A stretch of 32,939 nt of DNA from Candidatus Cloacimonadota bacterium (lineage in GTDB: Bacteria; Cloacimonadota; Cloacimonadia; Cloacimonadales; Cloacimonadaceae): positions 1 through 32,939 of the forward strand of contig JAJBAY010000017.1 in the NCBI GenBank assembly GCA_020532515.1, read 5' to 3'. This document shows, piece after piece, positions 10,026-27,325 of the stretch; position 1 is the first letter of the stretch, and every line of letters starts with the position of its first letter. Both the position numbers and the translations under genes were made by a program. The notes beneath the pieces were generated by a model. The model saw only the letters and a list, made by a program, of their open reading frames with translations. It searched no databases and was not told the DNA's origin.

Positions 10026-13000
10026 ATGAAAAAGCTGAACATATTATTCCTGCTGATCATTATCAGCACAGCCATATTTGCGGAAAGGGTCAAATTCGAT
10101 CCCTACTGGTTCCAATCCCGCACAATAATCGGCTGTTTTACAAAAGAAGCAATTCCCAATATAGATGGAAAATTGGACTTTACAATAGAGGGCGGCGTAA
10201 TCCGCACCGGAATCAAAAGCATCGATGCTCTGGCAGACAAATACCAGATCGTCGATCTTAAGCAGGCCCATCCTTATTTAACTGATTACAATCTGAATGA
10301 TAAAGGTCTCTATCTGCAAAACACCTACCGTTTTATCCTGGCCAGCGATGATAATATCGATGCTGCCTGCACAGATTTGCACAAAGACGCCAATCTCATC
10401 TATGCCGAGCTGGAGGCCATCAACCGTCAAAAGTTCGTGCCGGACGATCCCATGTTGCCCCAACAGTATGCACATCCCCTCCTGCAGAGCTTTGAAGCCT
10501 GGGATTATGTAACCGGAAGCCATGATATTATAGTGGCCATCACCGATAGTGGTGTGAAATGGAATCATCCTGACCTGATGGGAAACATCTGGATCAACCC
10601 CGCCGAATCTCCTGGCATGAGCATCAATTGGACACAAGGTACGATTCTGGGCGGAGACGGTCAGGACGCAGGTGAAGGCGGAGGCAAAATAGACGACTTG
10701 GTAGGCTGGGATTTTGTGAATAATGATAACAACCCCATCCAAACTTATGCTACCAACGATCATGGCACCCACGTGGCCGGATGCGCCGCCGCAATGGGAA
10801 ACAATGGCATCGGCGTAGTAGGCACCGCGCCCAATGTCTCTATTCTTTCTTGCAAAGGAGCACCCAACAATGCTCCCTCCCAAGGCGTGCAATATGCCTA
10901 TGATCAGGTTCTTTATTCTGGCCAGATCGGTGCACACGTCATCAATGCCAGCTGGGGCGGACCCGGCAATGGCGCTTATCCCAATAGCATCGTAAATCAC
11001 GTGACACTTTTGGGCTCAACTTTTATTAGTGCAGCCGGTAACGCAAATTTAGAGCATGGTCCCGGCTATCATGATTATCCTGCGGATTGCGACAACGCGC
11101 TAAACGTAGCCGCTACCAACCATTCAGATATCAAAGCAGACTTTTCAGATTTCGGTGAGCCGATCGATATCTGCGCTCCTGGCGATAACATCCTTTCCAC
11201 CATCATAGGCGGCTCGGGTTATGCTTCTTATAGTGGCACATCCATGGCCAGTCCTGTGGCTGCCGGTGTGGCTGCTTTGGTAAAATCCCTGCATCCCACC
11301 ATGAGCTCTCTGGACCTACGTAACAGGCTGATGATGACGGCAGACCCCATTGACGATATCAACCCGAACTATGTAGGTAAGCTGGGTACCGGACGCATCA
11401 ATTCCTTCACCGCCACCATGTATGACAAGATTCCCTATATCGTGAAGGAAGAGCTTGTCATTACCGAAATCAGCGGCGATGGAGATGGAGTGCCAAATCC
11501 AGGAGAAACCATCGGCATGAATATCAAACTGGGCAACATTATGACTGGACTCGGGATCTTGTGGAAGAATGCCAGCGATCTGAGTGCAAGCCTGAGGACA
11601 AACTATCCTGGCGTAACCATTATTGATTCAGTATCTGCTTTTGGACAAAGCGGATATCTCTATGCCGGCTCATCCGCCTGGAATGCCAATCAATATACTT
11701 TTAGCACCATAGCAGATCTCCCCTCCGAGCCCATTCCTTTTGAGCTCATGGTTACTTCCAACGGCGATCAGGCCTATCCATATCATAAGGTAATCCCTTT
11801 CAGCATCAGTCTTTCTCTGGTGCAAGCAGGCTGGCCTTTTGATACCGGTGGAGCTTCTAGCAGCTCTCCCATCCTGGTGGATATCACTGGAGATGGCAAG
11901 CTTGAAACAGTGTTTGGAGACCAAGCGGGCAATATCGATATCGTAAATACTGCCGGCGTCTCTGTGCTGGCTAATTTCCCCTTGAACCTCGGTTCAAACG
12001 TGGTAGGCTCCATTGCCATGGGCGAGCTGGTGGCTGATGGCCATCATGATTTTGCGGCCAGCCTGGCAAATAACAACATTGTAGCTTTCAATTCAACTGG
12101 CGCTCTGCTGTTCAGCCAACCCGCCGGAGGCACTCTGCGTAGTGGACCTGCGATCGCAAACGTCATCTCAGGCTCCCCTGCCAAGGTAGTTGCTTTGGCT
12201 CAAAATGGCAGCTTGCATGTCTTGAATAGCGATGGTACATATCTGCCCAACTTCCCTGCCGCTCTGGGCGGAGCCTTTCTGGCCAGTCCAGCTGTAGCAG
12301 ACCTGAATGGCGATGGAAATCATGAAATTATCGCCTGCGCTCTTTCCGGCCAGTTGCACGCCATCGATCCTCTCACCGGACAGAATATTGCCGGCTTCCC
12401 CGTGCAATTGAATGGCGGCAGCCAAAACGCTATCACCATTGCCAATATCGATGGCGATGCCTATCCTGAAATTCTGGTGGCAACCAGTAGTTCCGGCCTC
12501 CTTTACGCCATCAATCATGATGGCAGCATACTCTTTGAAAAAACCATCGGCGGTCAGATCAAGACCAGCCCCATCGTAGCAGACGTCAATAACGATAATG
12601 TAAAAGAGATCATCCTGATCGCAGGCAATGGCAATATCTATGTGATGAACGGCGCCGGTGTCAATCTGCCCGGAACCCCGATCATCGTGGGTTCTGCAGT
12701 GGAATGCACCCCCGTAGTGGCCAGATTTGATTACGGCTCAGATAATGCCGGCATCATCTTTGGCGACACCACCGGCAGGCTCCATTCTGTACGCATAGAC
12801 GGCAGCGAATCTCCTAACTTCCCCATTCTCCTGAACGGTAATCTCAAAGTTTCCGCTGCCCTCGCTGATATCGATGATGACGGCGATCTGGATATCGTGA
12901 TTCCGGATAACGGCGGGTATTACGTTATGGATATTAAGCGCCCCTACCAAAGCATTGAATGGGCTTGCTACACTGGCAGTTATGGCCGCGCGGGCAATGT

Positions 13001-13319
13001 TTATTCGCCCACTGCCAACGAGGATTTGGTCATCGATGCCTTTAGCACCACGCTTTTGGGAGCCTATCCCAACCCCTTCAATCCCAGCACCACGCTGAGC
13101 TTCAGCCTCAAAGAGCAAGGAAACGTAAACCTCGATATCTACAATCAGAAAGGACAGAAAGTACGCACCTTGCTCAGTGATACCATGCCTGCGGGCGAGC
13201 ATCGCATCCATTGGAATGGTACCGATGACAACGGCCGCAATGTGGCCAGTGGCCTGTACTTGTACCGTATGAAATCCGGAAAATACAGCTCCACCCGCAA
13301 AATGATCCTGATGAAATAA
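10026..13319 (+). CDS. Secreted subtilisin-like serine protease (S8) with VCBS/FG-GAP-like repeats and FlgD/T9SS-like C-terminal domain
   Basis: A 1097-aa exported peptidase. The signal peptide ends at about STAIFA (residue 19). A propeptide (about 20-145) precedes the S8 domain with catalytic D174 (ITDSGV), H246 (NDHGTHVAG), oxyanion N339 (SAAGN) and S406 (SGTSMASP). Residues about 610-960 hold repeats of the D-x-(D/N)-x-D-G type (for example near 616, 758, 805, 852 and 947), predicted to fold as a calcium-binding beta-propeller or VCBS/FG-GAP module. Residues 1012-1097 form the YPNPFNPST...SGLYLYR...SSTRKM sorting-like domain shared with the protein at 15347-18097. The ATG at 10026 is preferred over the in-frame GTG at 10020 because GAGG (10017-10020) lies 5 nt before it. 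A terminator follows directly. Confidence 0.95.
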   Translation: MKKLNILFLLIIISTAIFAERVKFDPYWFQSRTIIGCFTKEAIPNIDGKLDFTIEGGVIRTGIKSIDALADKYQIVDLKQAHPYLTDYNLNDKGLYLQNTYRFILASDDNIDAACTDLHKDANLIYAELEAINRQKFVPDDPMLPQQYAHPLLQSFEAWDYVTGSHDIIVAITDSGVKWNHPDLMGNIWINPAESPGMSINWTQGTILGGDGQDAGEGGGKIDDLVGWDFVNNDNNPIQTYATNDHGTHVAGCAAAMGNNGIGVVGTAPNVSILSCKGAPNNAPSQGVQYAYDQVLYSGQIGAHVINASWGGPGNGAYPNSIVNHVTLLGSTFISAAGNANLEHGPGYHDYPADCDNALNVAATNHSDIKADFSDFGEPIDICAPGDNILSTIIGGSGYASYSGTSMASPVAAGVAALVKSLHPTMSSLDLRNRLMMTADPIDDINPNYVGKLGTGRINSFTATMYDKIPYIVKEELVITEISGDGDGVPNPGETIGMNIKLGNIMTGLGILWKNASDLSASLRTNYPGVTIIDSVSAFGQSGYLYAGSSAWNANQYTFSTIADLPSEPIPFELMVTSNGDQAYPYHKVIPFSISLSLVQAGWPFDTGGASSSSPILVDITGDGKLETVFGDQAGNIDIVNTAGVSVLANFPLNLGSNVVGSIAMGELVADGHHDFAASLANNNIVAFNSTGALLFSQPAGGTLRSGPAIANVISGSPAKVVALAQNGSLHVLNSDGTYLPNFPAALGGAFLASPAVADLNGDGNHEIIACALSGQLHAIDPLTGQNIAGFPVQLNGGSQNAITIANIDGDAYPEILVATSSSGLLYAINHDGSILFEKTIGGQIKTSPIVADVNNDNVKEIILIAGNGNIYVMNGAGVNLPGTPIIVGSAVECTPVVARFDYGSDNAGIIFGDTTGRLHSVRIDGSESPNFPILLNGNLKVSAALADIDDDGDLDIVIPDNGGYYVMDIKRPYQSIEWACYTGSYGRAGNVYSPTANEDLVIDAFSTTLLGAYPNPFNPSTTLSFSLKEQGNVNLDIYNQKGQKVRTLLSDTMPAGEHRIHWNGTDDNGRNVASGLYLYRMKSGKYSSTRKMILMK

Positions 13320-13343
13320 AACAACAGGACTGAATAAAAATGA

Positions 13344-13373
13344 AGAGCCTCCCATCTGGGGGGCTCTTTTTTT
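13344..13373 (+). terminator. Intrinsic terminator after the S8 protease gene
   Basis: AGAGCCTCCC (13344-13353) and GGGGGGCTCT (13358-13367) pair over 10 bp (one G-U) with a 4-nt loop and run into a stretch of T (13367-13373). It lies 24 bp past the stop codon. Confidence 0.93.
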
Positions 13374-13502
13374 AGGCGCTCTCTCAAACCGAGTGGGTAG
13401 AATTGGATCCCTTATTTGATTCTGCAGATTAATGCAAAGTTTGCCACGAAGGGGAATAAAACTTGCATCTTAAGTAAACTAAGGCTGATCGCTACACATC
13501 AT

Positions 13503-14066
13503 CTATAGTTGAGGCTTTGGACATACACCACTACTTTGCAAGGTCTTTTTGAATTTGAGTTTCTGGTAGGGCTTGCCGTTTACTTCCACGATTCTATCGC
13601 TTTCGATAAGTACAAAGCCAATGCTCAGAGCCAGTCGCACCATTCTTTCATTACCGGACCAGGTCTCGCAATAAACCTGTTCCAGTGGCATGGTTTGGAA
13701 GAGGTGCTGAACCCACATTTCCAGGGCTTCCCTGCCTATCCCCCTACTCCAGAAAGCCATTTCCGGGATGGAAATACCGACGGCCAGGTATTCCGGCTTA
13801 TTTTCAATATAGTAGCTTGTTACCCAACCGATGTGGGTGTTATCCACCCAAATCTCGAATCTTGTTTTTAGCTCTTGTGGCCCTTTTTGAATTCTTTTTG
13901 AGAGTCTATCTATAAAGCTTGCGGCAAAGTCCTCGCTCATTTCTTCCCAGGGAGCATCCCATTTGGTCCAATCCAGTCCTTTTGTGAACCAGGCTCGATA
14001 ATCCTTCAAATCATCTGCAGTAGTAGCCCTCAAAGTGACTATGTTTCCGATGATCTCTGTAATCAT
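13503..14066 (-). CDS. GNAT-family N-acetyltransferase (RimJ/RimL-like)
   Basis: A 187-aa Gcn5-related acetyltransferase expected to transfer acetyl from acetyl-CoA to an amine. The N-terminal strand NIVTLRATTADDLKDYRAWF, the acetyl-CoA-binding loop WSRGIGREAL (about 107-116, matching R-x-x-G-x-G) and the C-terminal ETWSGNERMVRLALSIGF are typical of RimJ/RimL-like members. The substrate is unknown. The ATG at 14066 has only a distant GGAA, so the start is moderately secure. The gene is followed at its 3' end by the convergent S8 protease gene across a 183-bp gap, which contains only the protease terminator. Its start lies 63 bp from the stop codon of the epimerase-like lipoprotein gene on the same strand. 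Confidence 0.87.
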   Translation of the reverse strand: MITEIIGNIVTLRATTADDLKDYRAWFTKGLDWTKWDAPWEEMSEDFAASFIDRLSKRIQKGPQELKTRFEIWVDNTHIGWVTSYYIENKPEYLAVGISIPEMAFWSRGIGREALEMWVQHLFQTMPLEQVYCETWSGNERMVRLALSIGFVLIESDRIVEVNGKPYQKLKFKKTLQSSGVCPKPQL

Positions 14067-14129
14067 TTCAGATTTCTTAGTTCCGGTGACGTCCCTACCA
14101 CTGCAGATACGTTGAAACCGGCGTTAATC

Positions 14130-15089
14130 TCAGTGGCTATCTGCATAAAACAGATCGCTAATAGCCGCGAAATACTCATCTCCAGTCAGCAGTGTACAGA
14201 GGTTCAGCAATTGAATATGCACTATGTGATAATCCACATATTTCTGGCGGTACAAAAGGCAGTAGGCACTGCGCTCAGAGGGATTTCTGTACAAGAGGAT
14301 GTTGTCTTTGATAGAGGTCATTTCACAGCTAAATAGCTTTGCCGACAAATCATCGCCAAACACCCACCAATGATCGTACAAGCCCATGGAGCCAATGATG
14401 GAGCCATTTAACACATATCTTCTACTATGCATGGGGTATTCGTCCACCCAATAGTAGCGGGGACCCTTTAGCAAAGTATCCTCAGCAGAGATCAAGACTC
14501 CGGAGTATGGACTATCAAAATCAGTAAAAGTAGCCAGGATGGAATCTGCCACCGCTTTATACAGAGGGTTTTCAGTATAGTGATACAATCTGCAATAGGC
14601 AGAAAGGGCGGTTCCTTGCGCCATGCCAGAAAACCAGGGTGCCGTGTAGGTCACTTGGGTACCTTCGGAAAAGTCGAATTGGTAAGGGAAATATAGCATA
14701 TTCTTGTATCTAACGGCGTTGCGGCGTAAAGCTTCCATGCTCTTTTCGGCATGACTGAGATATTTTGGCTCAGCGGTATGATCATAATCGCTGAGAGCTT
14801 CCAGGCTCTTGAAGCAGAGGTTTACCGGATGGTAGTAGAGGCCTCCGGCATAAGGGAAAAGGTAAACTCCGTCAGCATCCTGCGGCTCGGCATTCCAGGT
14901 ATCGAATATGCGTTCCCTATTCTTAAATAGCTGTGCATAAGGAACATGCTCCAGTGTAAAAGAGTAGTCATGTAGATCTGAATAGAGAGTTTTAGTAGGC
15001 TCTTTTGAGCAAGATATCAGTGGCAGCAACAGCAATAGTAGCACGAAATATCTCAGTCTGTGGCCCCAGGTAAATATAATATTGCACAT
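14130..15089 (-). CDS. Lipoprotein with D-glucuronyl C5-epimerase C-terminal-like domain
   Basis: A 319-aa predicted lipoprotein. After MCNIIFTWGHRLRYF comes a Leu-rich core and the lipobox LISC, so mature protein is probably anchored through that Cys. The rest resembles the (alpha/alpha) barrel of the C5-epimerase C-terminal family: YPYQFDFSEG near the middle, then APWFSGMAQGTALSAY, a Y-W-x-x-EYP segment and VLNGSIIGSMGLYDHW. In heparan/alginate-like pathways this domain inverts C5 of uronic acids; many bacterial copies are of unknown specificity. The start at 15089 is chosen over an upstream in-frame ATG (15164) because GGTGGA sits 6 nt before it and it begins a normal signal peptide. No polysaccharide genes are adjacent. 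Confidence 0.8.
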   Translation of the reverse strand: MCNIIFTWGHRLRYFVLLLLLLPLISCSKEPTKTLYSDLHDYSFTLEHVPYAQLFKNRERIFDTWNAEPQDADGVYLFPYAGGLYYHPVNLCFKSLEALSDYDHTAEPKYLSHAEKSMEALRRNAVRYKNMLYFPYQFDFSEGTQVTYTAPWFSGMAQGTALSAYCRLYHYTENPLYKAVADSILATFTDFDSPYSGVLISAEDTLLKGPRYYWVDEYPMHSRRYVLNGSIIGSMGLYDHWWVFGDDLSAKLFSCEMTSIKDNILLYRNPSERSAYCLLYRQKYVDYHIVHIQLLNLCTLLTGDEYFAAISDLFYADSH

Positions 15090-15219
15090 TTCGAATCCAC
15101 CTTGTCGATTTTTTGCAATGATCTGCAGGGACAAGCTGGTGTCAAGCAGAATAAATGCGGGCATCTCACTAAAACATCGAACTATCGATTTATAAACAGC
15201 CTATTGACAACCCCGTTGA

Positions 15220-15278
15220 GGCGGTCTCCCGTACCGCCTTAATCATAGCTCATCTTTGTATGCGGTACAGAGACCGCC
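15220..15278. repeat. REP-like pair of palindromes in inverted orientation
   Basis: GGCGGTCTCCCGTACCGCC (15220-15238) and GCGGTACAGAGACCGCC (15262-15278) are imperfect inverted copies with a 23-bp spacer. Each arm is itself palindromic (GGCGGT...ACCGCC; GCGGT...ACCGC). Organisation resembles a REP/BIME unit between two minus-strand genes. Confidence 0.7.
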
Positions 15279-15286
15279 ACTACATG

Positions 15287-15312
15287 AAAAACCCCGGACG
15301 AAGCCGGGGTTT
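15287..15312 (-). terminator. Intrinsic terminator for the 916-aa secreted protein gene
   Basis: Read on the minus strand, AAACCCCGG and CCGGGGTTT form a 9-bp stem with a 6-nt loop (15289-15312), followed by a run of T (complement of 15287-15290). It lies 35 bp after the stop codon of the minus-strand gene ending at 15347. Confidence 0.9.
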
Positions 15313-15346
15313 ATTGATTGTTGTGGCAGATAGTCTGCCGGTAGAT

Positions 15347-18097
15347 TTATTCCATCAGCATCATTTTGCGAGTGCTGCTATAGGCTCCGGATGTGAAACG
15401 ATAGAGATAAAGACCGCTGGCCAGCGGATTCCCCATGTCGTCACGAGCATTGAAGACTATCTGATAGCGTCCTGCAGCCTGGGTTTCATTTAGCAAACTG
15501 CGCACCAATTGACCCTTCACATTGAATATATCAAGGCGCACGTTGCCAGCATCCTTGAGCTGGTAACTGATAGTGGTCTCAGGGTTAAAGGGGTTCGGAT
15601 AGTTGCCACCCAAAACAGTCCCGGATATCGGCACTATTTCATCTTCATTGGAGACAGGTGTCATTACGAAGTTCACTATGGTATCTTGATTTGCTGTCAC
15701 AACGACGTTTTCCTGGGTCACAGTGGAGAAGTTTGCATGGACAGCGCTTACCAGGTAGATTCCCACAGGCACAGTGAGGCTATAAGCGCCGGCAGCGTTT
15801 GTGGTGCTGCTATATCCACCTTCAGCGGAAACGGTAGCACCGAAGATGGGCACGCCGATGTCTGATATCACATGGCCCAGGATGTTGCCCTGCGGCTCTT
15901 CCTTGACCAGAGCATTCGAGAAGGCGGCAGCAGAGATCACATCTCCTGTATAGACAGCTTTCACAGCCCATGTATAGCTGCCGCTAGGCAGAGTGGCCCA
16001 AGTGGGGTCGATGAGATTTGTGGGGAAAATGGGGTAGGTGGTATAGCTCATCCAGTTAGCTTCGTTACCCTGATCAGCAGTCAGAAAACGGTAAACATAG
16101 AAGCCCACGAAAGCGCGGTCTTTGCTAAGATCTGGAAGTTGCCAGCTAATATGCACCTCGTTGCCATTATCCACTATTGTCGCAATCACGTTTTGGGGAG
16201 GATTGATGTTCTCGACCAAAAGGATATCTCCCATATTTACATCACCCGCGCCCACTATCAGATCACCGGTAGCAGTGGCAAAGCCCGGAGCACTGACGCT
16301 GTAGGAGTAGGTATGGTTTCCAAAAACACCGCTAATAGCGAACTGACCGGTGGCGTTTGTGATAGCTTCATAAGGCGCAAAACCGCTGAGGTTGATGGTA
16401 GCTCCAGCAAGACCTACGCTGGGTGCTCCACTTCCTACGATACGGCCGGTAACGCTCACCTGTACAGGAATGATGTCCAAAGCGAAGTTCAGAGTAGCGG
16501 TTTGGCCTTCCAGGATTGTCACAGTGTGGGTTACGGGAGTGTAGCCAGTTTTGCTGGCGGTCACACTATGAGTTCCCACCGGGATAAGATGCAGGATGTA
16601 GCTGCCATCTGCTGCGGATCCAGTGGAGAATTCAGTGCCCTCCACTTCGATTAGAGCTCCAGATAGAGGAGCACCGGCAGCGCTAACTACGCCACCAAGG
16701 CTACCCACTTCATCTGTCACAGGGTTAAAATCTGCCAGCATACGCGGGGTGATCTGAGCTCCGCCCTGGAAGTGAGCGATGAGGCCCAGCACGTTAAATT
16801 GCCCGATGTGCATGGGGGTATCGATATAATCCACATCGTAGAAACTGGTGCGGAAGTTCATGGCACCGGTGGCGTCAGAAATGGGATAGGTCACAGCCGG
16901 ATTAGTGGTGTAGTTTCCGCTGGGACTGGTGAAACTCACATCATTGATCTGCACCAGACGGGATTGATACTGGTTCACACCGATATCGGAATTCAGCTGC
17001 GCCACGGTGACGGTAGGCACCATTAAGTTGTTGCCACTGGATACCGCAGGACCGGGATCTGCCGTAGGCAAGAATTGCAGGGTTTCAAAGTACAAATTCA
17101 GCTTACCGGTGAGGCCAGCGATGGCATCGCCAACGTTGTAGGTGCTGGTGATCACGCCGGGTAGATCGTCGATCAGGATGGCCGCTCCAGCATCTTGCAC
17201 ATATTTCTGATGGCGGTTATTCTGTTTGAAGGTGAGGATTACCTCGCCTGTAACGTGATACACGGTGCTATTATCCGGGTTTTGCTGCCAGAGCTCGCTC
17301 AGGCTACCCACGTTCACATAAAAAGCATAATTCGCGCTTACAATTGCGCTGGGTTCATAGCCCGCAGCATAAGCTCTGGCTTTGATGGTGGTGGCGGTGC
17401 TTACGTTGATTGGAGCGGTAAATAAAGTAGAGGATTGGCTGGGCACGCTGCCATCAGTAGTGTAATAAATGCTGGCACCTGCTGTAGCGGTCGAAATGCT
17501 TACCTCAAAAGGAGCTCCATAGTGTCCAGAAGGTGGATCAAAAGTAGGATTAGCCACATATTGCTGGCCGCTGCCATAGGCAGTCCAAGTGATGTTGTCG
17601 ATAGTTAACTGACGGTTTACTGTGCCACCTTGAAGATGGCGGATTTCCATGGTGAAAGCGCCGGGGATATTTATGCCATTCACGATGAACTCATGAATAG
17701 TGGGGTCTGCACCCGAGGCTCCGCCAAAGATCTGGGAATCTGCCACCCAGACATCGTTGATATACAAAGCCACCTGGCGATCTCCCGCAGAGGTATAGGC
17801 CTTGCGCATCTGCACCGAGAAATTGCCAATTCCATTGGGGATGGGATCCGATACGATCCTACTGGGGACTGCGCTGCGGCGCAGGATCATGCCGTTTCCA
17901 TCAATGGAATTGTCATTGGCTCCGGCTACAGCGCCGGTTACATGAAAGTAGTTCCAGGTGATTCCGCCTTCTCCGACAAAGCTGCCGTCCACGTAGGCGG
18001 TCTCAGCGTAGTCAAAATTGGCGAATGTTTCCAGGCCTTGTGCCCAAACGCTTAGCGCTGCGACAAGGCAAATGATTAAAATGAGTGCTTTTTTCAT
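15347..18097 (-). CDS. Large secreted multidomain protein with CHB_HEX-like, carboxypeptidase-regulatory-like, FN3 and FlgD/T9SS-like domains
   Basis: A 916-aa exported protein with a signal peptide ending at about WAQ (residue 20). Domains in order: an N-terminal beta-sandwich (about 25-175); a chitobiase/hexosaminidase C-terminal-like repeat with YYTTDGSVPS near 210-220; an OB-fold-like segment (about 270-380, with YHVTGEV); two carboxypeptidase-regulatory-like beta domains (about 465-620); an FN3-like domain (PPQNVIATIVDNG..WQLPD); a third regulatory-like domain (about 735-810); and the C-terminal YPNPFNPET...SGLYLYR...SSTRKM sorting domain. No catalytic domain is visible, so a surface adhesin or scaffold is likely. 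The ATG at 18097 is preferred to the GTG at 18109 because GGAGG lies 5 nt upstream. That start overlaps the stop of a 42-codon leader ORF. Confidence 0.88.
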   Translation of the reverse strand: MKKALILIICLVAALSVWAQGLETFANFDYAETAYVDGSFVGEGGITWNYFHVTGAVAGANDNSIDGNGMILRRSAVPSRIVSDPIPNGIGNFSVQMRKAYTSAGDRQVALYINDVWVADSQIFGGASGADPTIHEFIVNGINIPGAFTMEIRHLQGGTVNRQLTIDNITWTAYGSGQQYVANPTFDPPSGHYGAPFEVSISTATAGASIYYTTDGSVPSQSSTLFTAPINVSTATTIKARAYAAGYEPSAIVSANYAFYVNVGSLSELWQQNPDNSTVYHVTGEVILTFKQNNRHQKYVQDAGAAILIDDLPGVITSTYNVGDAIAGLTGKLNLYFETLQFLPTADPGPAVSSGNNLMVPTVTVAQLNSDIGVNQYQSRLVQINDVSFTSPSGNYTTNPAVTYPISDATGAMNFRTSFYDVDYIDTPMHIGQFNVLGLIAHFQGGAQITPRMLADFNPVTDEVGSLGGVVSAAGAPLSGALIEVEGTEFSTGSAADGSYILHLIPVGTHSVTASKTGYTPVTHTVTILEGQTATLNFALDIIPVQVSVTGRIVGSGAPSVGLAGATINLSGFAPYEAITNATGQFAISGVFGNHTYSYSVSAPGFATATGDLIVGAGDVNMGDILLVENINPPQNVIATIVDNGNEVHISWQLPDLSKDRAFVGFYVYRFLTADQGNEANWMSYTTYPIFPTNLIDPTWATLPSGSYTWAVKAVYTGDVISAAAFSNALVKEEPQGNILGHVISDIGVPIFGATVSAEGGYSSTTNAAGAYSLTVPVGIYLVSAVHANFSTVTQENVVVTANQDTIVNFVMTPVSNEDEIVPISGTVLGGNYPNPFNPETTISYQLKDAGNVRLDIFNVKGQLVRSLLNETQAAGRYQIVFNARDDMGNPLASGLYLYRFTSGAYSSTRKMMLME

Positions 18098-18222
18098 ATT
18101 TTCCTCCACTCTTTTATATATGCTGTTTTAATGTCTGTCATAAGTTCTGCTTTAAAATGTGAACAAGGCTGGGCTTCATAGACCCAAATGCTGGGTCTGC
18201 GTATGGTGCAAGCAGGTTCCAT
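18094..18222 (-). CDS. 42-aa leader ORF, ATGA-coupled to the secreted protein gene
   Basis: An ATG at 18222 with a perfect AAGGAG 5 nt upstream opens 42 codons (MEPACTIRRPSIWVYE...) and stops in TGA overlapping the next gene's ATG. The arrangement predicts translational coupling. A hairpin of about 7 bp (AGACCCA / TGGGTCT) lies inside the ORF. The peptide has no signal or membrane stretch and I recognise no family. It may be a regulatory leader rather than a functional protein. Confidence 0.5.
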   Translation of the reverse strand: MEPACTIRRPSIWVYEAQPCSHFKAELMTDIKTAYIKEWRKI

Positions 18223-18258
18223 ATTTTCTCCTTATCAGACTTTTATCCTTGGGTGAGA

Positions 18259-18285
18259 GTATTATTATGCTTTGAATTGTGTCAA
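18259..18285 (-). promoter_or_regulatory. Candidate promoter for the leader ORF and secreted protein
   Basis: On the minus strand TTGACA (18280-18285) is followed after 15 bp by TAATAC (18259-18264). Transcription would start near 18252, about 20 nt before the AAGGAG of the leader ORF. The spacing is short, so confidence is modest. Confidence 0.35.
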
Positions 18286-18660
18286 TTGGTTTTTTGCACA
18301 TGAGGAAAATAGTTTAGGGGTTTTGGAGTTTTATAGTTTTAGCGTTTTATCGTTTGGGGTTTATGGCGTTTAAAGTTTAATGCTTAACGCTCAATATCTC
18401 AGCGTTTTAGCGCTTTAAAGTTGGCTCCCGCTGTATAGCTTTTCCTGTAGGCGAACTGAGTCCCCTGGGGGCGGTATTTTAGTTAGCCAAGCAATAACGA
18501 GTGCCACAGCACTGACTTCAGCCCTCCTCAGCGGCAATATTTTCAAAAAAGAGCTTGACGATAAGAGCAAAGCCAAAAAACAATGTAATTAGTCGTTTAA
18601 CCCTAAATAGTTTGCAAGTGGGACAAAAGGATCCGGTTTGCAAAAAGTGGCTTTAACTTA
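18286..18660. other. Gene-free divergent intergenic region with T/G-rich degenerate repeat
   Basis: From about 18303 to 18420 the plus strand is a low-complexity T/G-rich tract with many variants of GTTTTAGCG and CGTTTTA. The remainder (18421-18660) shows a TTGACG at 18555-18560 without a good -10, and two similar GTTTGCAA-(n)-GTGG stretches (18610 and 18637). No gene is supported. Confidence 0.5.
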
Positions 18661-18675
18661 TTGAAGGATAAAGGA

Positions 18676-19839
18676 GTGAGTAAAATCATTATGCTAGGAC
18701 TAATCATGAAAATGCACCAAGCCCATGGACGCTTAAGCCATAAACTGATCTGGATCACGCTAATCCTATCCACAATTTTTGTCACATCCGGATGCCACAA
18801 GCGCTGCCCCACAGCACCTGCAGAACCTGATGCCTATTGGAATACCGTTACATTTGGGGAAACCGCCTGTAATTTCGTCAGCAACAGCCGCAGCTTTCGA
18901 GGAAAGCTTTTTGCTACCAATCGTTGGGGAACACTTTGCTTTGATGACATGGATAATTATTGGCAGCAGCACGCCTTGGGCATTTCCACCGGCTTGGACT
19001 ACAAGCCCTTAATCTCTAAGGATTTTACCGTGTATTTGAGAGATCGGAATATCTATATCACACGAACCGAGGGAGATGCAAGTGGAAGCATAATGATCTG
19101 GCCCAGAGATATTGATCCCAAGTTTGAAGATTTTTATTTTTCACATACCTATTATGAGAAAGAGCTGGGCTTAATGAACGGAAACAACCGCTTTCTTACC
19201 TGGATTCGTGGAACAGAAGACGGTCATTATATGGACTATTTGGTTTTTGTAGATTTACAGGATGCCCCTATTATTCAGATAACGAATAAAGGCTATTGGC
19301 CGGCATCTCCGCCTCAGGAAGGTGCCAACTTTTGGAATGTTTCGTTTAAGGGCATGCTCGCCATGAATAATAATTTTTATATTGCTTATGATAATGCGCG
19401 GACGTCATATCATCGGGTCATATATCCTGATCTGAGCTACGAAGAAATACAGGTTAATCGTTATCATAGCGCGATTACATTGTTCGAATATAAGGGAAAG
19501 ATCTGGGCGCAGCTTGCCAATACCGAGTTGGTTTATTCCTCAGATTTCCAGAACTGGGAACATTTTGCCTGGATGGAGCCCTATTTATTCGATATTCGCG
19601 CCATAGACGATTATCTGTTCGTCCATATCAATGATAAAGCGTGGTTCTTCAGTGATTCGGAAAACCCCGGCAGCATATACCAAATCCCCACCGAAAACAT
19701 GGAAACCAGGACGATTACCTCAATTAGTAAGTTTTTGGATTATCTTGTCATTACCACCACAAATGGCATATTCTATAAATCTTACGAAACGATCATGAAT
19801 GATAAAATCCTGAATCGGGGAATCAGCCTGCTACAATGA
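18676..19839 (+). CDS. Predicted lipoprotein of unknown function
   Basis: About 387 aa. A long basic N-terminus leads to a membrane-type core (LIWITLILSTIF) and the lipobox VTSGC, after which the mature protein starts CHKRCPTAPAEP. The remainder is rich in aromatic residues and short beta strands with recurring patterns such as a bulky-F/Y-D-DYLFVHI and KGKIWAQL, suggestive of a beta-propeller. I do not recognise a family. The start is uncertain: GTG 18676 has AAGG 8 nt upstream, ATG 18691 and ATG 18706 are also in frame, and a TTG at 18661 extends the frame. A short ORF with a strong ribosome-binding site begins 13 bp after its stop. Confidence 0.72.
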   Translation: MSKIIMLGLIMKMHQAHGRLSHKLIWITLILSTIFVTSGCHKRCPTAPAEPDAYWNTVTFGETACNFVSNSRSFRGKLFATNRWGTLCFDDMDNYWQQHALGISTGLDYKPLISKDFTVYLRDRNIYITRTEGDASGSIMIWPRDIDPKFEDFYFSHTYYEKELGLMNGNNRFLTWIRGTEDGHYMDYLVFVDLQDAPIIQITNKGYWPASPPQEGANFWNVSFKGMLAMNNNFYIAYDNARTSYHRVIYPDLSYEEIQVNRYHSAITLFEYKGKIWAQLANTELVYSSDFQNWEHFAWMEPYLFDIRAIDDYLFVHINDKAWFFSDSENPGSIYQIPTENMETRTITSISKFLDYLVITTTNGIFYKSYETIMNDKILNRGISLLQ

Positions 19840-19851
19840 CGAGGGAAAGCT

Positions 19852-20016
19852 ATGGGAAAAGATTATTTTAGACAGCAAGCACTGCAATACCTGCCGCTCG
19901 AGTCCCTTGGTGAAGGTATTTCAGATAGCAAAACAATAATCCAATACCATAACGAGTGTTGTAGGCACGTTATTTCAGATAGAACCTTGCAGACTTCTGG
20001 CTCTTGGCTTCCCTGA
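19852..20016 (+). pseudogene. 54-codon ORF with a strong ribosome-binding site, probably a truncated gene
   Basis: ATG 19852 is preceded by GAGGGA at 5-nt spacing, directly after the lipoprotein gene, and reads MGKDYFRQQALQYLPLESLG before ending at TGA 20014-20016. The opening is like a normal cytoplasmic protein, but the ORF stops just before the 82-bp palindrome. TATTTCAGATAG occurs twice within it about 53 bp apart. I read it as the 5' stump of a gene cut off when the sequence to the right was inserted or rearranged; a genuine small protein is the alternative. Confidence 0.4.
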
Positions 20017-20022
20017 TCTATA

Positions 20023-20104
20023 GACTTGATTTTAACGGGTGTTTGACTCGAGATGACTCGGATATTCGAGTCAACTCGAGTCGAAAACATGTTGAAATCA
20101 AGTT
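20023..20104. repeat. 82-bp near-perfect palindrome
   Basis: The two halves pair around the centre 20063/20064: CTTGATTTTAAC (20025-20036) with GTTGAAATCAAG (20091-20102), and GACTCGAG with CTCGAGTC, then inner GACTCG with CGAGTC (20045-20082). Only a few mismatches (for example 20038, 20041, 20053) and G-T pairs interrupt it. The core has four copies of the GACTCG/CGAGTC hexamer. No T tract follows, so it is not a standard terminator. Confidence 0.9.
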
Positions 20105-20210
20105 CAGTTGGAAAGGGATGGTAAACCCGCCAGAGGCCACAGCTCGCCGCAAAAGATCGCTTGTGCTGAGAAAGTGCTTGACGCCCTGACTCACTCAAAT
20201 CAAATTGCCC

Positions 20211-20232
20211 TTTGATGACTTATATCATCAAA
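20211..20232. promoter_or_regulatory. Operator-like perfect inverted repeat upstream of the defence locus
   Basis: TTTGATGA (20211-20218) and TCATCAAA (20225-20232) form a perfect inverted repeat with a 6-bp spacer, 65 bp before the leader ORF. A possible promoter TTGATG (20212-20217), 17 bp, TAAAAA (20235-20240) overlaps it, so a dimeric repressor bound here would block the -35. The promoter assignment is tentative. Confidence 0.45.
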
Positions 20233-20296
20233 ACTAAAAACCTGATTTCGCATGAAACCGGAATAGAGCCAGCATAAATGATGTTCGGGAGATAGG

Positions 20297-20392
20297 ATGA
20301 ATCGAAAAAGAGGCACGACCATAGGGACACTTGTGAAAGTCATAGTTCTTTCCACAGGATTACTGTTTAGTCACAAAGGGCACACAACATGA
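20297..20392 (+). CDS. 31-aa leader ORF, ATGA-coupled to the PLD-helicase gene
   Basis: ATG 20297 follows GGGAG at 5-nt spacing and encodes a basic start (MNRKRGTT) and one hydrophobic stretch (VKVIVLSTGLLF) over 31 codons. Its TGA (20390-20392) overlaps the helicase ATG (20389-20391). Layout suggests translational coupling; a separate peptide function cannot be judged. Confidence 0.4.
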   Translation: MNRKRGTTIGTLVKVIVLSTGLLFSHKGHTT

Positions 20393-23300
20393 GCAATTTC
20401 ATCACGAATTCCGGCCAGAAGAATTTGAGAACCCGGCTTTCGACCCTTATTAAAGAAAGCGAAGAGCTCAAAATCCTGGTTGGCTTCTTTTACTTTTCCG
20501 GCATAACGGAATTGATTGACAGTTTGAAAGAAAATCCCGATCTCACCCTCAAGATCCTGGTAGGGCTAAATATAGATGCGCAAAGCTATGGACTGGTGGA
20601 ATATGCCGATAAGGCAAGCAAAAACCGCATTGAGCGCATCGAGGATTATCATGAATCCGTGCTTGCGGCTTTGAATACAGATATTTTCGACAATGAAACT
20701 TTTTATGAGCAGGCCCGCTTCATCATAGATCAGATCATAGCGGATAGGATCATTATCCGTAAAACCCTGCGCCCAAACCATGCCAAATTGTATCTCTTCC
20801 ATCTCAATGCCTTGCAGGTAGCGCGCAACCAGCTTTTTATCACTGGCAGCAGTAATCTCAGCAAAGCCGGGCTCAGCGATCGGGAAGAATTCAATGTAGA
20901 AATTGCCGATTACGGTTTTGAGCAGGCTGAACAGTATTTCGATGAACTCTGGGACACTGCCATTCAGATCACCGAAGCAGACAGAGAAAAGACCAGACTG
21001 CTGCAGAATATCCAGGAAAAGACTCTGCTCAAATCCGTCCATCCCTTTGATGCCTATATGTTTGTGGTTAAGACCTGGCTGGATAGTTTCTATAAATATG
21101 AATCCAGCCGTTTCATCTCGCTCCTCTTGGAAAGAAAAGGCTATATACCCTATAAATACCAGATCGATGCAGTCACTCAGGCTATGTCCATCATCGAAGA
21201 GAATTCGGGTGTGATCCTGGCCGACGTGGTGGGTCTGGGCAAATCCATCATTGCCGGGCTCATCGCGCGCAAGCTGGATAAACGGGGCATCATCATCTGC
21301 CCTCCGGGCTTGATTGGTGACGATAGCGCCAGCTCCGGCTGGAACAAGTACAAAGAAGATTTTGAGCTTTACGATTGGGATGTGCGCTCCGGGGGAAATC
21401 TGGATGCCATCCTGGATTATCTGGAAACCGCACAAGGCATTGAAGTGATCGTGGTGGACGAAGCTCATCGCTATCGCAATAGCAATACCGAAAGCTATGA
21501 AAAGCTGAAATCCATCTGCCGCGGCCGCAAAGTGATCCTGCTCACGGCTACGCCTTTCAATAATTCCCCGGCGGATATCCTGGCCATGCTGAGCCTCTTT
21601 ATCGTTCCCAAAAAGTCCACCATCACGCTCAGCAGCAACCTTGTGGACCTCTTCCGCTTTTACAACAGCCTCTTCAAAGACCTGGCCTTTATCCGCAAAA
21701 ACTGGCAGTCCAAAGACTCTGCCAAGACAGATGAAGCGCAAAAGAAATACGGTGCTTTATTTGGTGATGAACCGGTCAATATCACAAAAGTGATTAAGCG
21801 TTCATCCTTGCTTTCCGGGCAGATCCGTGAGGTCATCGAACCAGTCACAATCCGCAGAAACCGCTTGGACCTGCTGGGCGATCCGGATTACCAGGATGAA
21901 GTGGGCAAGCTCTCTCAGATCGATAGTCCCAAAGAGTGGTACTACTGCTTAAGCGTGGAGCAATCTGCCTTTTATGACCGGGTGATAGAGCTCTATTTTA
22001 CCGATAACCCCGATAGCGCAGACCGCTTCAGAGGCCCCATCTACAAACCCTACACCTACGAGGGTGATCCCTCTGCCTCTGCCAAGATGAGCAGACAAGA
22101 GCAAATAGACCGCCTCAGCCAGGACAACCTCTATGATATCATCCGGCGACAATTGGTAAAACGCTTTGAAAGCTCCTTCGGCGCTTTTCGCCAGAGCATC
22201 GTAAATGCCCGCAATTCTTATCTAAAGATTCTCAAATTTATAGAAGACTCGGGCGGCCGCTATGTGCTGAACCGCAAGCTGATCAACAAGGCCGAATCCG
22301 GAGATGCGGATTATATTGATGAGCTGCTCAGAGAATTTGCCGAAGAAAACAAGGATAAAGACGGCAAGAAAGACCGGGTTTATGATGTAAATAAATTCCG
22401 CTTCAAAGAGCAATTCTTTGAGGATATCGCCTCCGACCTCCGGCTTTTCGATAAGATCATCTCCGAGATCGATGCCCTGGAGCTGGTAAATAACGATCCC
22501 AAGCGCCTGGCCCTGATCGATAACGTGAAAGCAGTGCTTGGCACTCCTCCCAAAAAAGGCGAGCCGGCCCCCAAACTTGTGATCTTCTCCGAATATGCCG
22601 ATACCGTAAAATATCTGGAGACAGATTTGACTGATAACTTTGGAGAGCGGGTCCTGGTGATCTCCTCCGGCATCAGTAAAACCCACCTTGAAGAGATCAA
22701 TAGCAATTTTGACGCTGCCTACTCCAAGAAAAAGCAAAAAGACCAATATGATATTCTGCTGGCCACAGACAAGCTTTCGGAAGGATTCAACCTGAACCGC
22801 GCCCTTATGGTAATCAATTACGATATTCCCTGGAATCCGGTGCGTGTGATCCAACGCGTAGGGCGCATAAACCGCATCAGCAAAAAGGTCTTTGAAACTC
22901 TGTATATCACCAATTTCTTCCCCAGCGAGCAGGGAGCAGACATCGTAAAAAGCCGCGAAATAGCTTCGCATAAGATGTTTATGATTCATCAAACTTTAGG
23001 TGAGGACGCCCGCATCTTTGATGCTGAGGAAGAGCCCTCCCCGGCCAAACTCTTTGCCAAAGTGCAGCGCAATCCATATGAACTCGATGCTGAAAGCCTC
23101 TATACCCGGCTGAAAAAACAAATGCGGGAATGGGAAGAAATGTATCCAGAACGCGTAAAGGCTCTGGAGGAAATGCCGGTGAGGATCAAGACCGCCAAAG
23201 CCGATCTGCAAGATGCGCTTATCATGTTCATCCGCAAAGGCAAGCTCTTCTGTGTAAGCCAGGACTTTGTGGATGAGAATATGCAGCTCTTGCCCTTGCC

Positions 23301-23745
23301 CATAGAAGCAGCTCTCAAAAGGATCCAGTGCAGCCCGGATACAGCGCAGCTTCCTCTGAGCAATAGCTTCTGGACAAACTACAAAATGCTGAAGGAAGAA
23401 GCCGAAAAGTTCAGCTTCAAACAGTCCCAACAGAGTAACTCCACGAAAGCCTTCAACCTGCTCTCCTCCCTTTTGCAGCAGGATGTCCCTGAGCTGCTGC
23501 CCTGGCGCACCTTTATCATCATGCTACGTGAAGATATTCAGGACTATGGGACCTTGGCAGAATACACGCTCAGGACCATCAGCGATTGGGATAATAATGG
23601 CAAACTGGATTATTCGCACATAGCAAAAGAGCTTAAGGTCCTGAGCAGGAAATTGGGCAAGAACTACCTGAAACAGGTAAAAGAAAGCCTCAAAGCCTAT
23701 GAACAACAGGTGATTGTGGCAGTGGAGAATAGGATATGGACATAA
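20389..23745 (+). CDS. SNF2-family helicase with N-terminal phospholipase D-like domain
   Basis: 1118 aa. Residues 1-190 are a phospholipase D-like module with HAKLYLF (H131, K133) and GSSNLSKAG (153-161), a layout seen in helicase-linked PLD nucleases. Residues about 250-850 form a SNF2/RAD54-type ATPase: Walker A DVVGLGKS (279-286, K285), DEAH (357-360), LTATPFNNS (385-393), and C-terminal motif QRVGRINR (822-829) preceded by TDKLSEGFNLNRA. Only one HxK motif is present, so a dimer would be needed for PLD catalysis. Start ATG 20389 has AAGGG 8 nt upstream and overlaps a leader ORF. The 3' end overlaps the methyltransferase by 10 bp, so the pair is co-translated. Role: DNA translocase and probable nuclease of a restriction-like defence system (inference from domains and context). 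Confidence 0.93.
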   Translation: MSNFITNSGQKNLRTRLSTLIKESEELKILVGFFYFSGITELIDSLKENPDLTLKILVGLNIDAQSYGLVEYADKASKNRIERIEDYHESVLAALNTDIFDNETFYEQARFIIDQIIADRIIIRKTLRPNHAKLYLFHLNALQVARNQLFITGSSNLSKAGLSDREEFNVEIADYGFEQAEQYFDELWDTAIQITEADREKTRLLQNIQEKTLLKSVHPFDAYMFVVKTWLDSFYKYESSRFISLLLERKGYIPYKYQIDAVTQAMSIIEENSGVILADVVGLGKSIIAGLIARKLDKRGIIICPPGLIGDDSASSGWNKYKEDFELYDWDVRSGGNLDAILDYLETAQGIEVIVVDEAHRYRNSNTESYEKLKSICRGRKVILLTATPFNNSPADILAMLSLFIVPKKSTITLSSNLVDLFRFYNSLFKDLAFIRKNWQSKDSAKTDEAQKKYGALFGDEPVNITKVIKRSSLLSGQIREVIEPVTIRRNRLDLLGDPDYQDEVGKLSQIDSPKEWYYCLSVEQSAFYDRVIELYFTDNPDSADRFRGPIYKPYTYEGDPSASAKMSRQEQIDRLSQDNLYDIIRRQLVKRFESSFGAFRQSIVNARNSYLKILKFIEDSGGRYVLNRKLINKAESGDADYIDELLREFAEENKDKDGKKDRVYDVNKFRFKEQFFEDIASDLRLFDKIISEIDALELVNNDPKRLALIDNVKAVLGTPPKKGEPAPKLVIFSEYADTVKYLETDLTDNFGERVLVISSGISKTHLEEINSNFDAAYSKKKQKDQYDILLATDKLSEGFNLNRALMVINYDIPWNPVRVIQRVGRINRISKKVFETLYITNFFPSEQGADIVKSREIASHKMFMIHQTLGEDARIFDAEEEPSPAKLFAKVQRNPYELDAESLYTRLKKQMREWEEMYPERVKALEEMPVRIKTAKADLQDALIMFIRKGKLFCVSQDFVDENMQLLPLPIEAALKRIQCSPDTAQLPLSNSFWTNYKMLKEEAEKFSFKQSQQSNSTKAFNLLSSLLQQDVPELLPWRTFIIMLREDIQDYGTLAEYTLRTISDWDNNGKLDYSHIAKELKVLSRKLGKNYLKQVKESLKAYEQQVIVAVENRIWT

Positions 23746-26700
23746 CTAAGATTGTGCTACCCGAGACCTTTTCTGTAAGAAACTGGGTCGATTACTTTGA
23801 GATGGCATCCAAGGTCTTTACCGAGCGAGTGGCGCAGCTCTCAAGATACAATGATGATGATTTTACGGATATTAACACCCTGGGTGCGCTTGATTTTGAA
23901 GAGGCCAGCACTTGTAAAATATACCTTGTTCAAGTGAAGAGAGCTCTTAGCGAACGGGCTTCCCGAAGAAAGCAGTTTAGTAAAGCCACCGAGATCATCA
24001 AACAGGAGAATACGCAGGCCGGGCTCTTTGTCTTTTACGATTCAGCTAATTGCTTTCGCCTGAGCCTGGTCTATCCTATCTACAAGGGCATCAAACGCAG
24101 CTTTAGCAATTTCAAAAGACACTCCTTCTATGTAAGCGATAGCTTGCCAAATAAGACCTACCGGTTGCAACTCGGCAAATATGAGCTGAACAGCATGGCA
24201 GAGCTTAAGGATGCCTTCTCTGTGGATAAGGTCTCAGATGTCTTCTATCAGGAATTTGAAAAGGAATACCAAAACTTGCAAGCCGGAATAAGCCACCTTT
24301 ACAAGCGGGAAGTAACAGAAGATCAAAAGAGCAATTTTGCCTTACTTTTTGTGCTTAGGATCATCTTTCTGGGCTTTGTACAAAAGAAAGGCTGGCTGGG
24401 TGATAACCCCAATTTCATCAAAGACTTTATCAAAAGCTATGATCCCTCACAGCACCCCCTGGGCATGTATCAGGATCTGCTCTGTCCACTCTTTTTTACC
24501 GCTCTGAACTCTGCCCCTTCAGCCAAAAACAGATATGGTTTTCCCAATATCTCCGAACCCTTCAAATCCCAGTTGGTTTCTGCGCCCTACCTGAATGGCG
24601 GACTCTTTCGCAAGCATCAGGATTATGATACAGATGCGCTCATCATCGGTAATGAAGCAATTGAGCACTTTACCGGGTTCCTCTTCAGTTACAATTTTAC
24701 CCTGGAAGAGAATACCCTCTACGATGAAGAATTGGAGCTGAATCCGGAGTTTTTGGGCATCATCTTTGAAAAGCTGATCAACAAAGAATACGGAGCGATA
24801 TATACTCCCCGCCAGGAAGTGGACTTCATGTGCCGCATCGCTTTAGTGAAATATCTGCAACAAAACTCTCTTCCCTCCATCAGTCTGGAAAACCTCTATA
24901 AGCTATTCTTTCCGGAATATGGAGACGAAAGCGAACAAACAGCGGGAGATTTCACCGAGCTTGAAGCCAAAGACCTGCTGAACAAGCTGGAGACCGTTTC
25001 TGTCTGCGATCCTGCCATCGGTTCCGGAGCCTTTGCCGTGGGCATGCTGAATGTGATAGATGAGATCGAATGCAGCATTTACCAGAACTTTCTGCCTGGT
25101 GCTTCTATCGACAGCCCCTATGAGCGCAAAAAACGCATTATCTTCCAGTCCCTATATGGGGTGGAAGTTAAACAGTGGGCAGTGTGGATCACCCAGCTAA
25201 GGCTATGGATAACCTTGCTCATCGAAGCTGAAGATAGCTTCAAACACAGTGAAGATCCGCTACTGCCTTCTTTCGATTTTAAGATCAGGCAGGGAGATTC
25301 ATTGATTCAAATGCTGGGCAATAATCCTTTCCCTATCTCTGGTGAAGGCATCATCTCTGCTGGCACCAAGAAGAAAATAGCCGCTCTGATGAAGCTAAAG
25401 ACAGAGTACTTCTTCAATAAATGCCCGCTTAAATTACATGAAATAGAACAAGCTCAAACAAAACTCTATACTGACATCTTGAGCGACAGGATAAAAGAGC
25501 TAACTGCTAAGCTCTCTCGCTATGAAAATGCCGGTAAGCAGGAAGTGCAAACAAGTTTCCTGGAAGGGAGCTACCAGAGCGAAATCGAGCTCACCAGCCG
25601 CGAACAGGAACAGAAAATCTCAGAATTGAAGTTTCAAATCTCCCAGATTGATCACGAAATCCACCAGCTTGGTAAGCACAACCTACCCTTCATCTGGCGA
25701 ATTGACTTTCCTGAAATATTCATGCAAAAGGGAGGGTTCGACATTGTGATCGGCAATCCGCCTTATTTAGCTCAAGAGCATATTAGTGATCCTCTCGGTA
25801 AAATAGGTAAATCTGCCTATAAGGGCTTGTTAAAGAAAATGACCAATCAGGATTTTCCTATAGATATTCCAGAAATCAGCATAAGCGGCAAAAGTGATCT
25901 ATATACCTTCTTCTACATCAGAGGTCTGAAGATATTAAACGATGCCGGTATCCTTTGCTATATCTGCTCGAATTCCTGGCTTGATGTGGCATTCGGGGCT
26001 TGGTTGCAAAAGCTCCTTTTAGAACGATGCCCTATCCACTTCATCATCGACAATCTGGGTAACAGAGCATTTAAAAATGCAGATGTCAATACGATTATCT
26101 CGGTAATCGGAGCTCCGCAAAAGATGGTGAGAGGCGATGATAAAATTCGCTTTGTGGCATTCAAACTGCCTTTCGAGGAATCCCTTTACACAGAAAACTT
26201 CATTACTATAGAAGAAACTGAGTCCCGTAAAGAGTATGATGATCTGCGCATAAATAGCATCGACAGAGACAAACTGGTAAAGGAAGGATGGGAAAACAGT
26301 GATAAAGATAAATATAACGGAAGCATGTGGGGAGGATTCCACTTAAGGGCACCACACATTTTGATCAGAATTCTTGAGAACTGCCATAGTAAGCTATGTC
26401 TTTTAAACGAAATAGCCCAGATAAGAGGATATATTCACGATAATAATGTTGGCGACCAGCACCCCAAGCAACTTTTTGTTAAGTCGGTTAAGGACATATC
26501 TGTTTTAGGGGTAGATCGCAACACTGAGGGCGTTAAAACAGCTGGGATACGGTTTTCGAAAATGAACGATCTGTGCGCACCAATACTATTCCCAAGAACA
26601 TTAGGATCAAGGCATTTGGTGTTAAGGAACCTGGACAACGTGTATTATAAGGAGTTTTATAAAGTGATCCCAAATATACCTGAAATGGCAGACAGCATAT

Positions 26701-27038
26701 TTGCACAATTGAACTCATCATTTTGCATATTGCAAAGAGAGATTATTGGTTTATCAAATCTTGGCGACGGAGCAATAAAGTTTTCTATTCAGAGCATAGG
26801 CCTTTTTAGGCTTATACGCCAATTAAGCAGCCTTGAGCTTAGTGAAGTCATCCCGTTTCTTTTAACAGAGCCAGTTGATGACATTAAAGATGAGTTATCT
26901 AAGAGCTACAGAATGCATCTTGATGATATCGTCTTTTCTAAGCTTGGATTAGATAGAAATGAACGGAAGCAGTTCATGGATATACTACATCTTACCGTCG
27001 AACAACGACTATCAAGGGCATCAAAGAAAGCAAGATAA
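23736..27038 (+). CDS. Eco57I-like N6-adenine DNA methyltransferase (restriction-modification/defence)
   Basis: 1100 aa. Motif I is DPAIGSGAF (425-433) and motif IV is NPPY (674-677, in IGNPPYLAQEH), the gamma-class N6-adenine methyltransferase pattern of Eco57I/BREX-PglX-like enzymes. A predicted helical insertion (about 565-650) separates them. The N-terminal 350 aa have the VKRALSERASRRKQF segment common in this family; I see no convincing PD-(D/E)XK there. The C-terminal third (after about residue 870) is probably the TaqI-like target-recognition region. Codon use becomes clearly AT-rich from about 26340. The ATG overlaps the helicase gene by 10 bp, so both are made together. It probably marks host DNA so that the helicase/nuclease partner attacks unmodified DNA. 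Confidence 0.92.
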   Translation: MDITKIVLPETFSVRNWVDYFEMASKVFTERVAQLSRYNDDDFTDINTLGALDFEEASTCKIYLVQVKRALSERASRRKQFSKATEIIKQENTQAGLFVFYDSANCFRLSLVYPIYKGIKRSFSNFKRHSFYVSDSLPNKTYRLQLGKYELNSMAELKDAFSVDKVSDVFYQEFEKEYQNLQAGISHLYKREVTEDQKSNFALLFVLRIIFLGFVQKKGWLGDNPNFIKDFIKSYDPSQHPLGMYQDLLCPLFFTALNSAPSAKNRYGFPNISEPFKSQLVSAPYLNGGLFRKHQDYDTDALIIGNEAIEHFTGFLFSYNFTLEENTLYDEELELNPEFLGIIFEKLINKEYGAIYTPRQEVDFMCRIALVKYLQQNSLPSISLENLYKLFFPEYGDESEQTAGDFTELEAKDLLNKLETVSVCDPAIGSGAFAVGMLNVIDEIECSIYQNFLPGASIDSPYERKKRIIFQSLYGVEVKQWAVWITQLRLWITLLIEAEDSFKHSEDPLLPSFDFKIRQGDSLIQMLGNNPFPISGEGIISAGTKKKIAALMKLKTEYFFNKCPLKLHEIEQAQTKLYTDILSDRIKELTAKLSRYENAGKQEVQTSFLEGSYQSEIELTSREQEQKISELKFQISQIDHEIHQLGKHNLPFIWRIDFPEIFMQKGGFDIVIGNPPYLAQEHISDPLGKIGKSAYKGLLKKMTNQDFPIDIPEISISGKSDLYTFFYIRGLKILNDAGILCYICSNSWLDVAFGAWLQKLLLERCPIHFIIDNLGNRAFKNADVNTIISVIGAPQKMVRGDDKIRFVAFKLPFEESLYTENFITIEETESRKEYDDLRINSIDRDKLVKEGWENSDKDKYNGSMWGGFHLRAPHILIRILENCHSKLCLLNEIAQIRGYIHDNNVGDQHPKQLFVKSVKDISVLGVDRNTEGVKTAGIRFSKMNDLCAPILFPRTLGSRHLVLRNLDNVYYKEFYKVIPNIPEMADSIFAQLNSSFCILQREIIGLSNLGDGAIKFSIQSIGLFRLIRQLSSLELSEVIPFLLTEPVDDIKDELSKSYRMHLDDIVFSKLGLDRNERKQFMDILHLTVEQRLSRASKKAR

Positions 27039-27042
27039 AACT

Positions 27043-27294
27043 ATGGAATTCGAAACTCCCTCAGCTCAAAACATACAAAGTGCGCAGATTTCTCCTGATT
27101 TGCAGATCCATGCAGAATCTGAGGCTTTTTTAAAAGCCAGTCCTATCCCTGATAGGAAAGCAATTGATAACATAATGTTCAAATCTCTTGGCTTAAACGT
27201 TCAAGAGGCTAAGGGTCTATATGCAGGTTTGCTGGAGTTAACTGCCAGTAAGCCAAGGAAAGCAAGGATATTTACACCATGTTTATCCAACTAA
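27043..27294 (+). pseudogene. Orphaned C-terminal tail of a second methyltransferase
   Basis: An 83-codon ORF with no ribosome-binding site, starting 2 bp after the methyltransferase stop codon. Its segment KAIDNIMFKSLGLNVQEAKG is clearly similar to the C-terminus of the preceding enzyme (LDDIVFSKLGLDRNERKQ), and both end in a Ser/Lys/Arg-rich stretch. Best explanation: the specificity region of the methyltransferase was replaced and the old tail left behind. It could also be a small translated partner. Two tight palindromes lie inside: GGCTTTT-tt-AAAAGCC (27123-27138) and TCCTATC-cct-GATAGGA (27141-27157). Confidence 0.55.
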
Positions 27295-27325
27295 CACTAT
27301 TGAGTCAAAGAACTGTGGAGGACAA

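Follow-up and report, generated by a model that had tools for sequence, protein, structure and literature searches.

A long palindrome beside a defence island in Cloacimonadota belongs to a dispersed family of symmetric, apparently selected sequences

Introduction

Several kinds of short sequence are dispersed over bacterial chromosomes. Among the sites that organise the chromosome, parS and matS are 13-16 bp long and their proteins are known. For dispersed palindromes, RNA hairpins and selfish leftovers are the usual explanations. REP, BIME and REPIN repeats are made of REP units of 20-40 bp (PMC3733652, PMC3116915, PMC2817692), and the ERIC and NEMIS/Correia stem-loop repeats have been discussed mainly as RNA hairpins (PMC2267715). 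Our literature search found no paper on such repeats in Cloacimonadota. Here we describe an 82-bp palindrome of this phylum, in a stretch of 32,939 nucleotides that we call the window, together with its relatives in the same genome (G000) and in other genomes.

Structure of the palindrome and its family

The palindrome occupies positions 20023-20104 and consists of two adjoining 40-nt arms (20024-20063 and 20064-20103). The arms are 83% complementary, which makes the "near-perfect" of an earlier note slightly generous. The structure itself is real and far beyond chance: the strand has a folding energy of -50 kcal/mol, compared with -21.9 +/- 3.1 for shuffled sequences (z = -8.9), and 0 of 200 shuffles folded as stably. 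GACTCG is present twice in the left arm and CGAGTC twice in the right, giving the four core copies already noted. It also holds that there is neither a T tract nor a gene here, the overlapping 111-aa antisense ORF (19863-20198) having no Pfam match. The most conserved part, TT-N-GACTCGAG-N-TGACTCGA plus its mirror image (20042-20085), is an iterated 10-bp half-site, recognised in the column profile of 148 arms and in near-invariant columns of alignments A1 and A2. Outside the 82 bp, a flank profile of 67 arms shows conservation reaching about 20-22 bp outwards at precise positions, with C at -11 in 99% of the arms and a pyrimidine at -2 in all of them, mirrored on the right. Both outer boxes flank the window copy on either side (C at 20012 and T at 20021; G at 20115 and A at 20106), and with the outer ~22 bp on each side the extended element covers 20001-20126. 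Palindrome, core and extended element are all assigned to neither strand. The flanks pair no better with their own partner than with those of other copies, and we therefore rejected a specific stem extending beyond 82 bp.

A covariance model of the family, which matches the window copy on both strands (87.5 and 81.7 bits), finds about 51 copies in its own genome, most of them 82 nt long and the others mostly shortened. The sister species of the same genus (G007, whose contigs match the Cloacimonadota MAG BF1 Bin 88) has at least 75 copies, G011 only about three, and G012, which belongs to another genus, about forty dispersed copies of a homologous 83-nt version. None pass the strict family model in the remaining genomes of the genus, although this model could overlook divergent versions. 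All 39 located copies of G000 are intergenic, with tandem genes around 17, convergent genes around seven and divergent genes around six; the surrounding genes were called with a simple codon-usage script, and their starts are rough. The copy sets are species-specific and some copies have decayed. Of the sites examined, only some are known to be common to G000 and G007, and the window's own site has no copy in G007. At L022, the flanking genes that an empty-site comparison would need side by side are non-adjacent in congeners other than G007.

The length of the element is fixed. The 34 aligned copies of G000 and the 40 of G007 all align over 82 nt without gaps or indels, and they differ from one another by about 20-30% (mean pairwise identity 0.71-0.74; best pair within a genome 0.85-0.88). 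Their consensus half-site is rAyTyGnyTTTrAynnGyyTTnGACTCGAGnTGACTCGAr. Column-conservation profiles match between left and right arms and between the two species (r 0.93-0.96). The shortened copies are 54 and 64 nt long, and these lengths, together with loci L042 and L043, would be explained if 28 and 18 bp had been deleted between the internal CTCGAG repeats.

One repeated element end (...AGTGGTAAAGTTGGGTT), probably that of an insertion sequence, is found at about 10 places, often at contig ends. It has inserted at the centre of two palindromes, and other insertions lie elsewhere (loci L038 on G000:C1, L045 on G000:C145, and L040). We rejected it as a mobiliser of the palindromes since it also sits in unrelated targets. 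A phage origin was likewise rejected, the palindrome core having no match in viral contigs.

Conservation at orthologous sites

Orthologous copies offer a direct test of the usual explanations. We located orthologous sites of G000 and G007 by their masked flanks; both copies are full length at 15 of them, and the column conservation classes were taken solely from non-orthologous copies. Substitutions amount to 4/270 in the most conserved columns, 9/120, 102/450 and 67/240 in the intermediate classes, and 71/150 in the free columns. The conserved columns, being about 30-fold quieter than the free ones, have therefore been held in place since the species split, and the family is apparently under natural selection. 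In these regions, most coding ORFs show a divergence of about 0.19-0.39 at their fourfold-degenerate sites (a pooled figure of 0.245 also counts spurious antisense ORFs). The free columns diverge by 0.47 per site, which is more than the fourfold sites and possibly hints at conversion between copies or at an elevated mutation rate.

Copies also keep their distance from one another. On the G000 contigs with several copies the smallest gap is 8.8 kb, and gaps under 8 kb, of which 5.6 were expected, are absent (P about 1.5e-4); for G007, with an incomplete copy list, P is about 0.014. Independently of the contig gaps, 0 of 93 copy-bearing loci of about 2-5 kb hold a second copy, where we estimate that about nine would be expected at mean density. 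Several copies are within 1 kb of a contig end, and assembly breaks near copies could inflate the contig-gap test but hardly that of the 93 loci.

Taken at orthologous sites, the evidence points to selection on the half-site DNA sequence, in an element of fixed length and spacing. Our best explanation, which we hold with as much doubt as conviction, is that the palindrome is a selected symmetric DNA site for a putative multimeric DNA-binding protein. The family would then be a set of dispersed symmetric sites with a core of 82 bp, or about 126 bp with the outer boxes, and a sequence-specific protein would read them as double-stranded DNA. Equivalent half-site arms, with an iterated 10-bp GACTCGA(G) motif and outer boxes, are what the binding of several protomers in mirror symmetry would lead one to expect. 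Some 50 (G000) to 75 or more (G007) of these sites would be kept in intergenic DNA with a minimum spacing of about 9 kb, and their role might be chromosome organisation or long-range control and not the regulation of one gene. Copies could be lost through slippage between the internal CTCGAG repeats, leaving the 54- and 64-nt forms. Against such a DNA site stand the decayed copies, the partial sharing of sites (including the lack of a G007 copy at that of the window), some correlated arm changes in G007, the excess divergence of the free columns and the possible contig-break bias in the spacing.

Is the family a mobile repeat?

A patchy distribution is easier to reconcile with a mobile repeat than with a core function of the chromosome. 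The main rival explanation is an ageing, non-autonomous REPIN- or MITE-like repeat. Its inverted ends would be fused back to back, a trans-acting transposase would once have multiplied it, and it would now be mostly immobile, the conserved columns reflecting transposase recognition. We rate this as a serious contender, if a somewhat less probable one. Such behaviour is known from REPIN families (PMC3116915): like them, the palindromes are dispersed, intergenic and patchy across species, with species-specific copy sets. As in a MITE there are terminal inverted repeats, the whole element being an inverted repeat. Other palindrome families are present in G012 and G010, and one of them, family "b" of G012, has young, almost perfect copies.

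Neutral decay after insertion, however, should strike all columns equally, which the orthologous sites contradict. Moreover, close duplicates are missing within the genomes and the copies avoid one another. We found no match to the Y1 transposase (PF01797) in the window's own genome, with positive controls; this genome is 93% complete and the absence of the transposase is thus not absolute, but a REPIN driven by a RAYT was rejected on this basis. An IS110-family element acting on a palindromic target was rejected as well, PF02371 having no match in G000 or G007. No target-site duplication was found in 88 copies, where no shared flanking word of at least 3 bases exceeded chance at offsets of 0-30, though old copies could have lost one.

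G012 contains three palindrome families, one homologous to the 82-bp family and two unrelated to it in sequence, and all three have 10-11-bp direct repeats inside their arms. In family "b" the palindromes are almost perfect, and changes peculiar to one copy mostly occur as mirror images in its two arms, as template switching between the arms would produce (compare PMC8794818). The near-perfect palindromes at L119, L120, L124 and L126 of this genome, 88 bp or longer (CTCCTTGCTTGATTACCTTAGTATAACCTTAGTATAACCTTACG), have mostly mirrored changes, which we read as concerted evolution of the arms within each copy. G010 has a different family of perfect palindromes (CCCCCCTTGTAATTAACGGCACAAAAC..., at L205 1726 and L206 13945) with mirrored variants and T-rich flanks. 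Repeated origin of dispersed long palindromes thus seems to be a feature of this bacterial family.

Is the palindrome read as RNA?

The palindrome could alternatively act as a transcribed hairpin, be it a terminator, an mRNA stabiliser or an RNase III substrate. The predicted hairpin is indeed very stable, and the G000 copies tend to lie nearer to gene 3' ends than to starts. Nonetheless, an intrinsic terminator should combine a hairpin with a U tract downstream of genes, and here the T tract is missing and six copies lie between divergent genes. No known RNA family in Rfam matches the palindrome, and a known RNA was rejected on that account. If the RNA hairpin were under selection, G.U-type changes should be better tolerated than A.C-type ones; both are equally common (G.T 256 and A.C 265), also in the tandem gene contexts of G000. 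At the orthologous sites pairing partners were co-substituted 11 times, not above the 9.3 expected by chance. The conserved feature is therefore the sequence and not its pairing as RNA. The arms of the G000 copies covary no more than shuffles do; the correlated changes in the G007 arms concern a few columns in a sample chosen by a pairing-aware model, and are weak for that reason. We regard an RNA-level element as improbable.

The neighbouring defence island

The palindrome lies in non-coding DNA, 284 bp upstream of a PLD-SNF2 helicase gene (20389-23745, + strand) that is the first gene of a defence island and is outside the repeat. Besides the helicase, the island encodes a type IIG-like methyltransferase, candidate defence proteins (PDC-M30-like) and a HigB-like/HTH-M78 pair. 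The other neighbour is an orphan gene (18661-19839) that, among 12 genomes of the genus, was found in no other. Comparison of the window with contig C154 of G007 (blastn) places the palindrome inside a variable segment (about 18286-20166, without strand); in G007, the same flanking blocks enclose ~15 kb of other DNA instead. On the left, window 9448-18285 aligns in pieces with C154 10500-18171. To the right, window 20167-23736, with the helicase, aligns with C154 33130-36698 at 93%, and window 30879-32819 with C154 42247-44187. The claim that the palindrome sits exactly at the island edge is thus only approximately right.

The special link to the island that had been proposed is not supported. 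Some 50 copies lie in ordinary intergenic DNA elsewhere, no island is known beside the other palindromes of the family, and the family model found no copy in 37 kb of G007:C154 around the island helicase. By these alignments, G007 has the island in the same neighbourhood with no palindrome nearby. Its locus is no clean empty site, and gain in one species is indistinguishable from loss in the other. The congeners G006 and G010 carry related island methyltransferases, and the family model gave no match in either. The palindrome has no specific connection with the defence genes next to it, and a false lead on the arrival of this island is thereby removed. That it is the island's integration or recombination site is contradicted already and scarcely credible, given the copies elsewhere, the G007 island, and the lack of a tRNA in the window, of a recognised integrase and of a target-site duplication, even if the ordinary genes do end on one side of it and the defence genes begin on the other. 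What survives of the proposed integration, recombination or mobile-element remnant is the last part, as some past mobility is likely because a non-coding repeat has spread through the genome.

The island was also compared with that of G007 over window 23736-30879. Both species retain its helicase (93%) and its last gene (77%), but the methyltransferase and middle genes are replaced, the methyltransferase proteins being about 34% identical. This suggests a cassette exchange of the specificity part. Window 7704-7789 belongs to a different dispersed imperfect palindrome (GGATGTCGTGGAGATGCCGTGGAGAT...). Sequences similar to it are found in G007:C154 at 18496 and at 32807, and the second of these lies directly to the left of the island helicase there. 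In the stump region (19864-19982) a short motif, TATTTCAGATAG, is repeated at 53-54-bp spacing, and the TTCAGATAGCA motif of this region recurs in G007, to the left of the helicase, and close to other loci.

Comparison with known systems

Taken as a whole, the family might be an undescribed one: mirror-symmetric, selectively maintained sites of 82-126 bp, about one per 45 kb and mutually exclusive below ~9 kb, which serve a multimeric architectural protein in Cloacimonadota and have analogous, unrelated palindrome families in sister genera. We put forward this fuller picture as a tentative one, less likely to be true than not.

Like ERIC and NEMIS/Correia repeats (PMC2267715), the palindromes are intergenic, of comparable or smaller size and numerous in each genome; unlike them, they have no RNA-strand signature and their half-sites are conserved at orthologous sites. 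With REP, BIME and REPIN repeats (PMC3733652, PMC3116915, PMC2817692) they share a short palindromic form, many dispersed intergenic copies, restriction to families or species, insertion of IS elements into the repeats and suggested roles in chromosome organisation. In contrast to those repeats, the unit is 82 bp, and the GTAG or CGTC end tag is replaced by a consensus end (r)AyTyG... with outer boxes CYY and YT. The copies are neither clustered nor doubled, and their pairing errors show no strand preference in a symmetric element. The length, the tag, the lack of a RAYT gene and that of a target-site duplication are why we do not file the family under REP/REPIN, despite its similar distribution.

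parS and matS resemble the palindromes in being dispersed DNA sites with spacing, for which a symmetric protein would be the reader here too. They differ in being far shorter and in having known proteins, where that of the 82-126-bp family is a putative one. If a protein does read these sites, they would add a new type of landmark to the chromosomes of an uncultured phylum.
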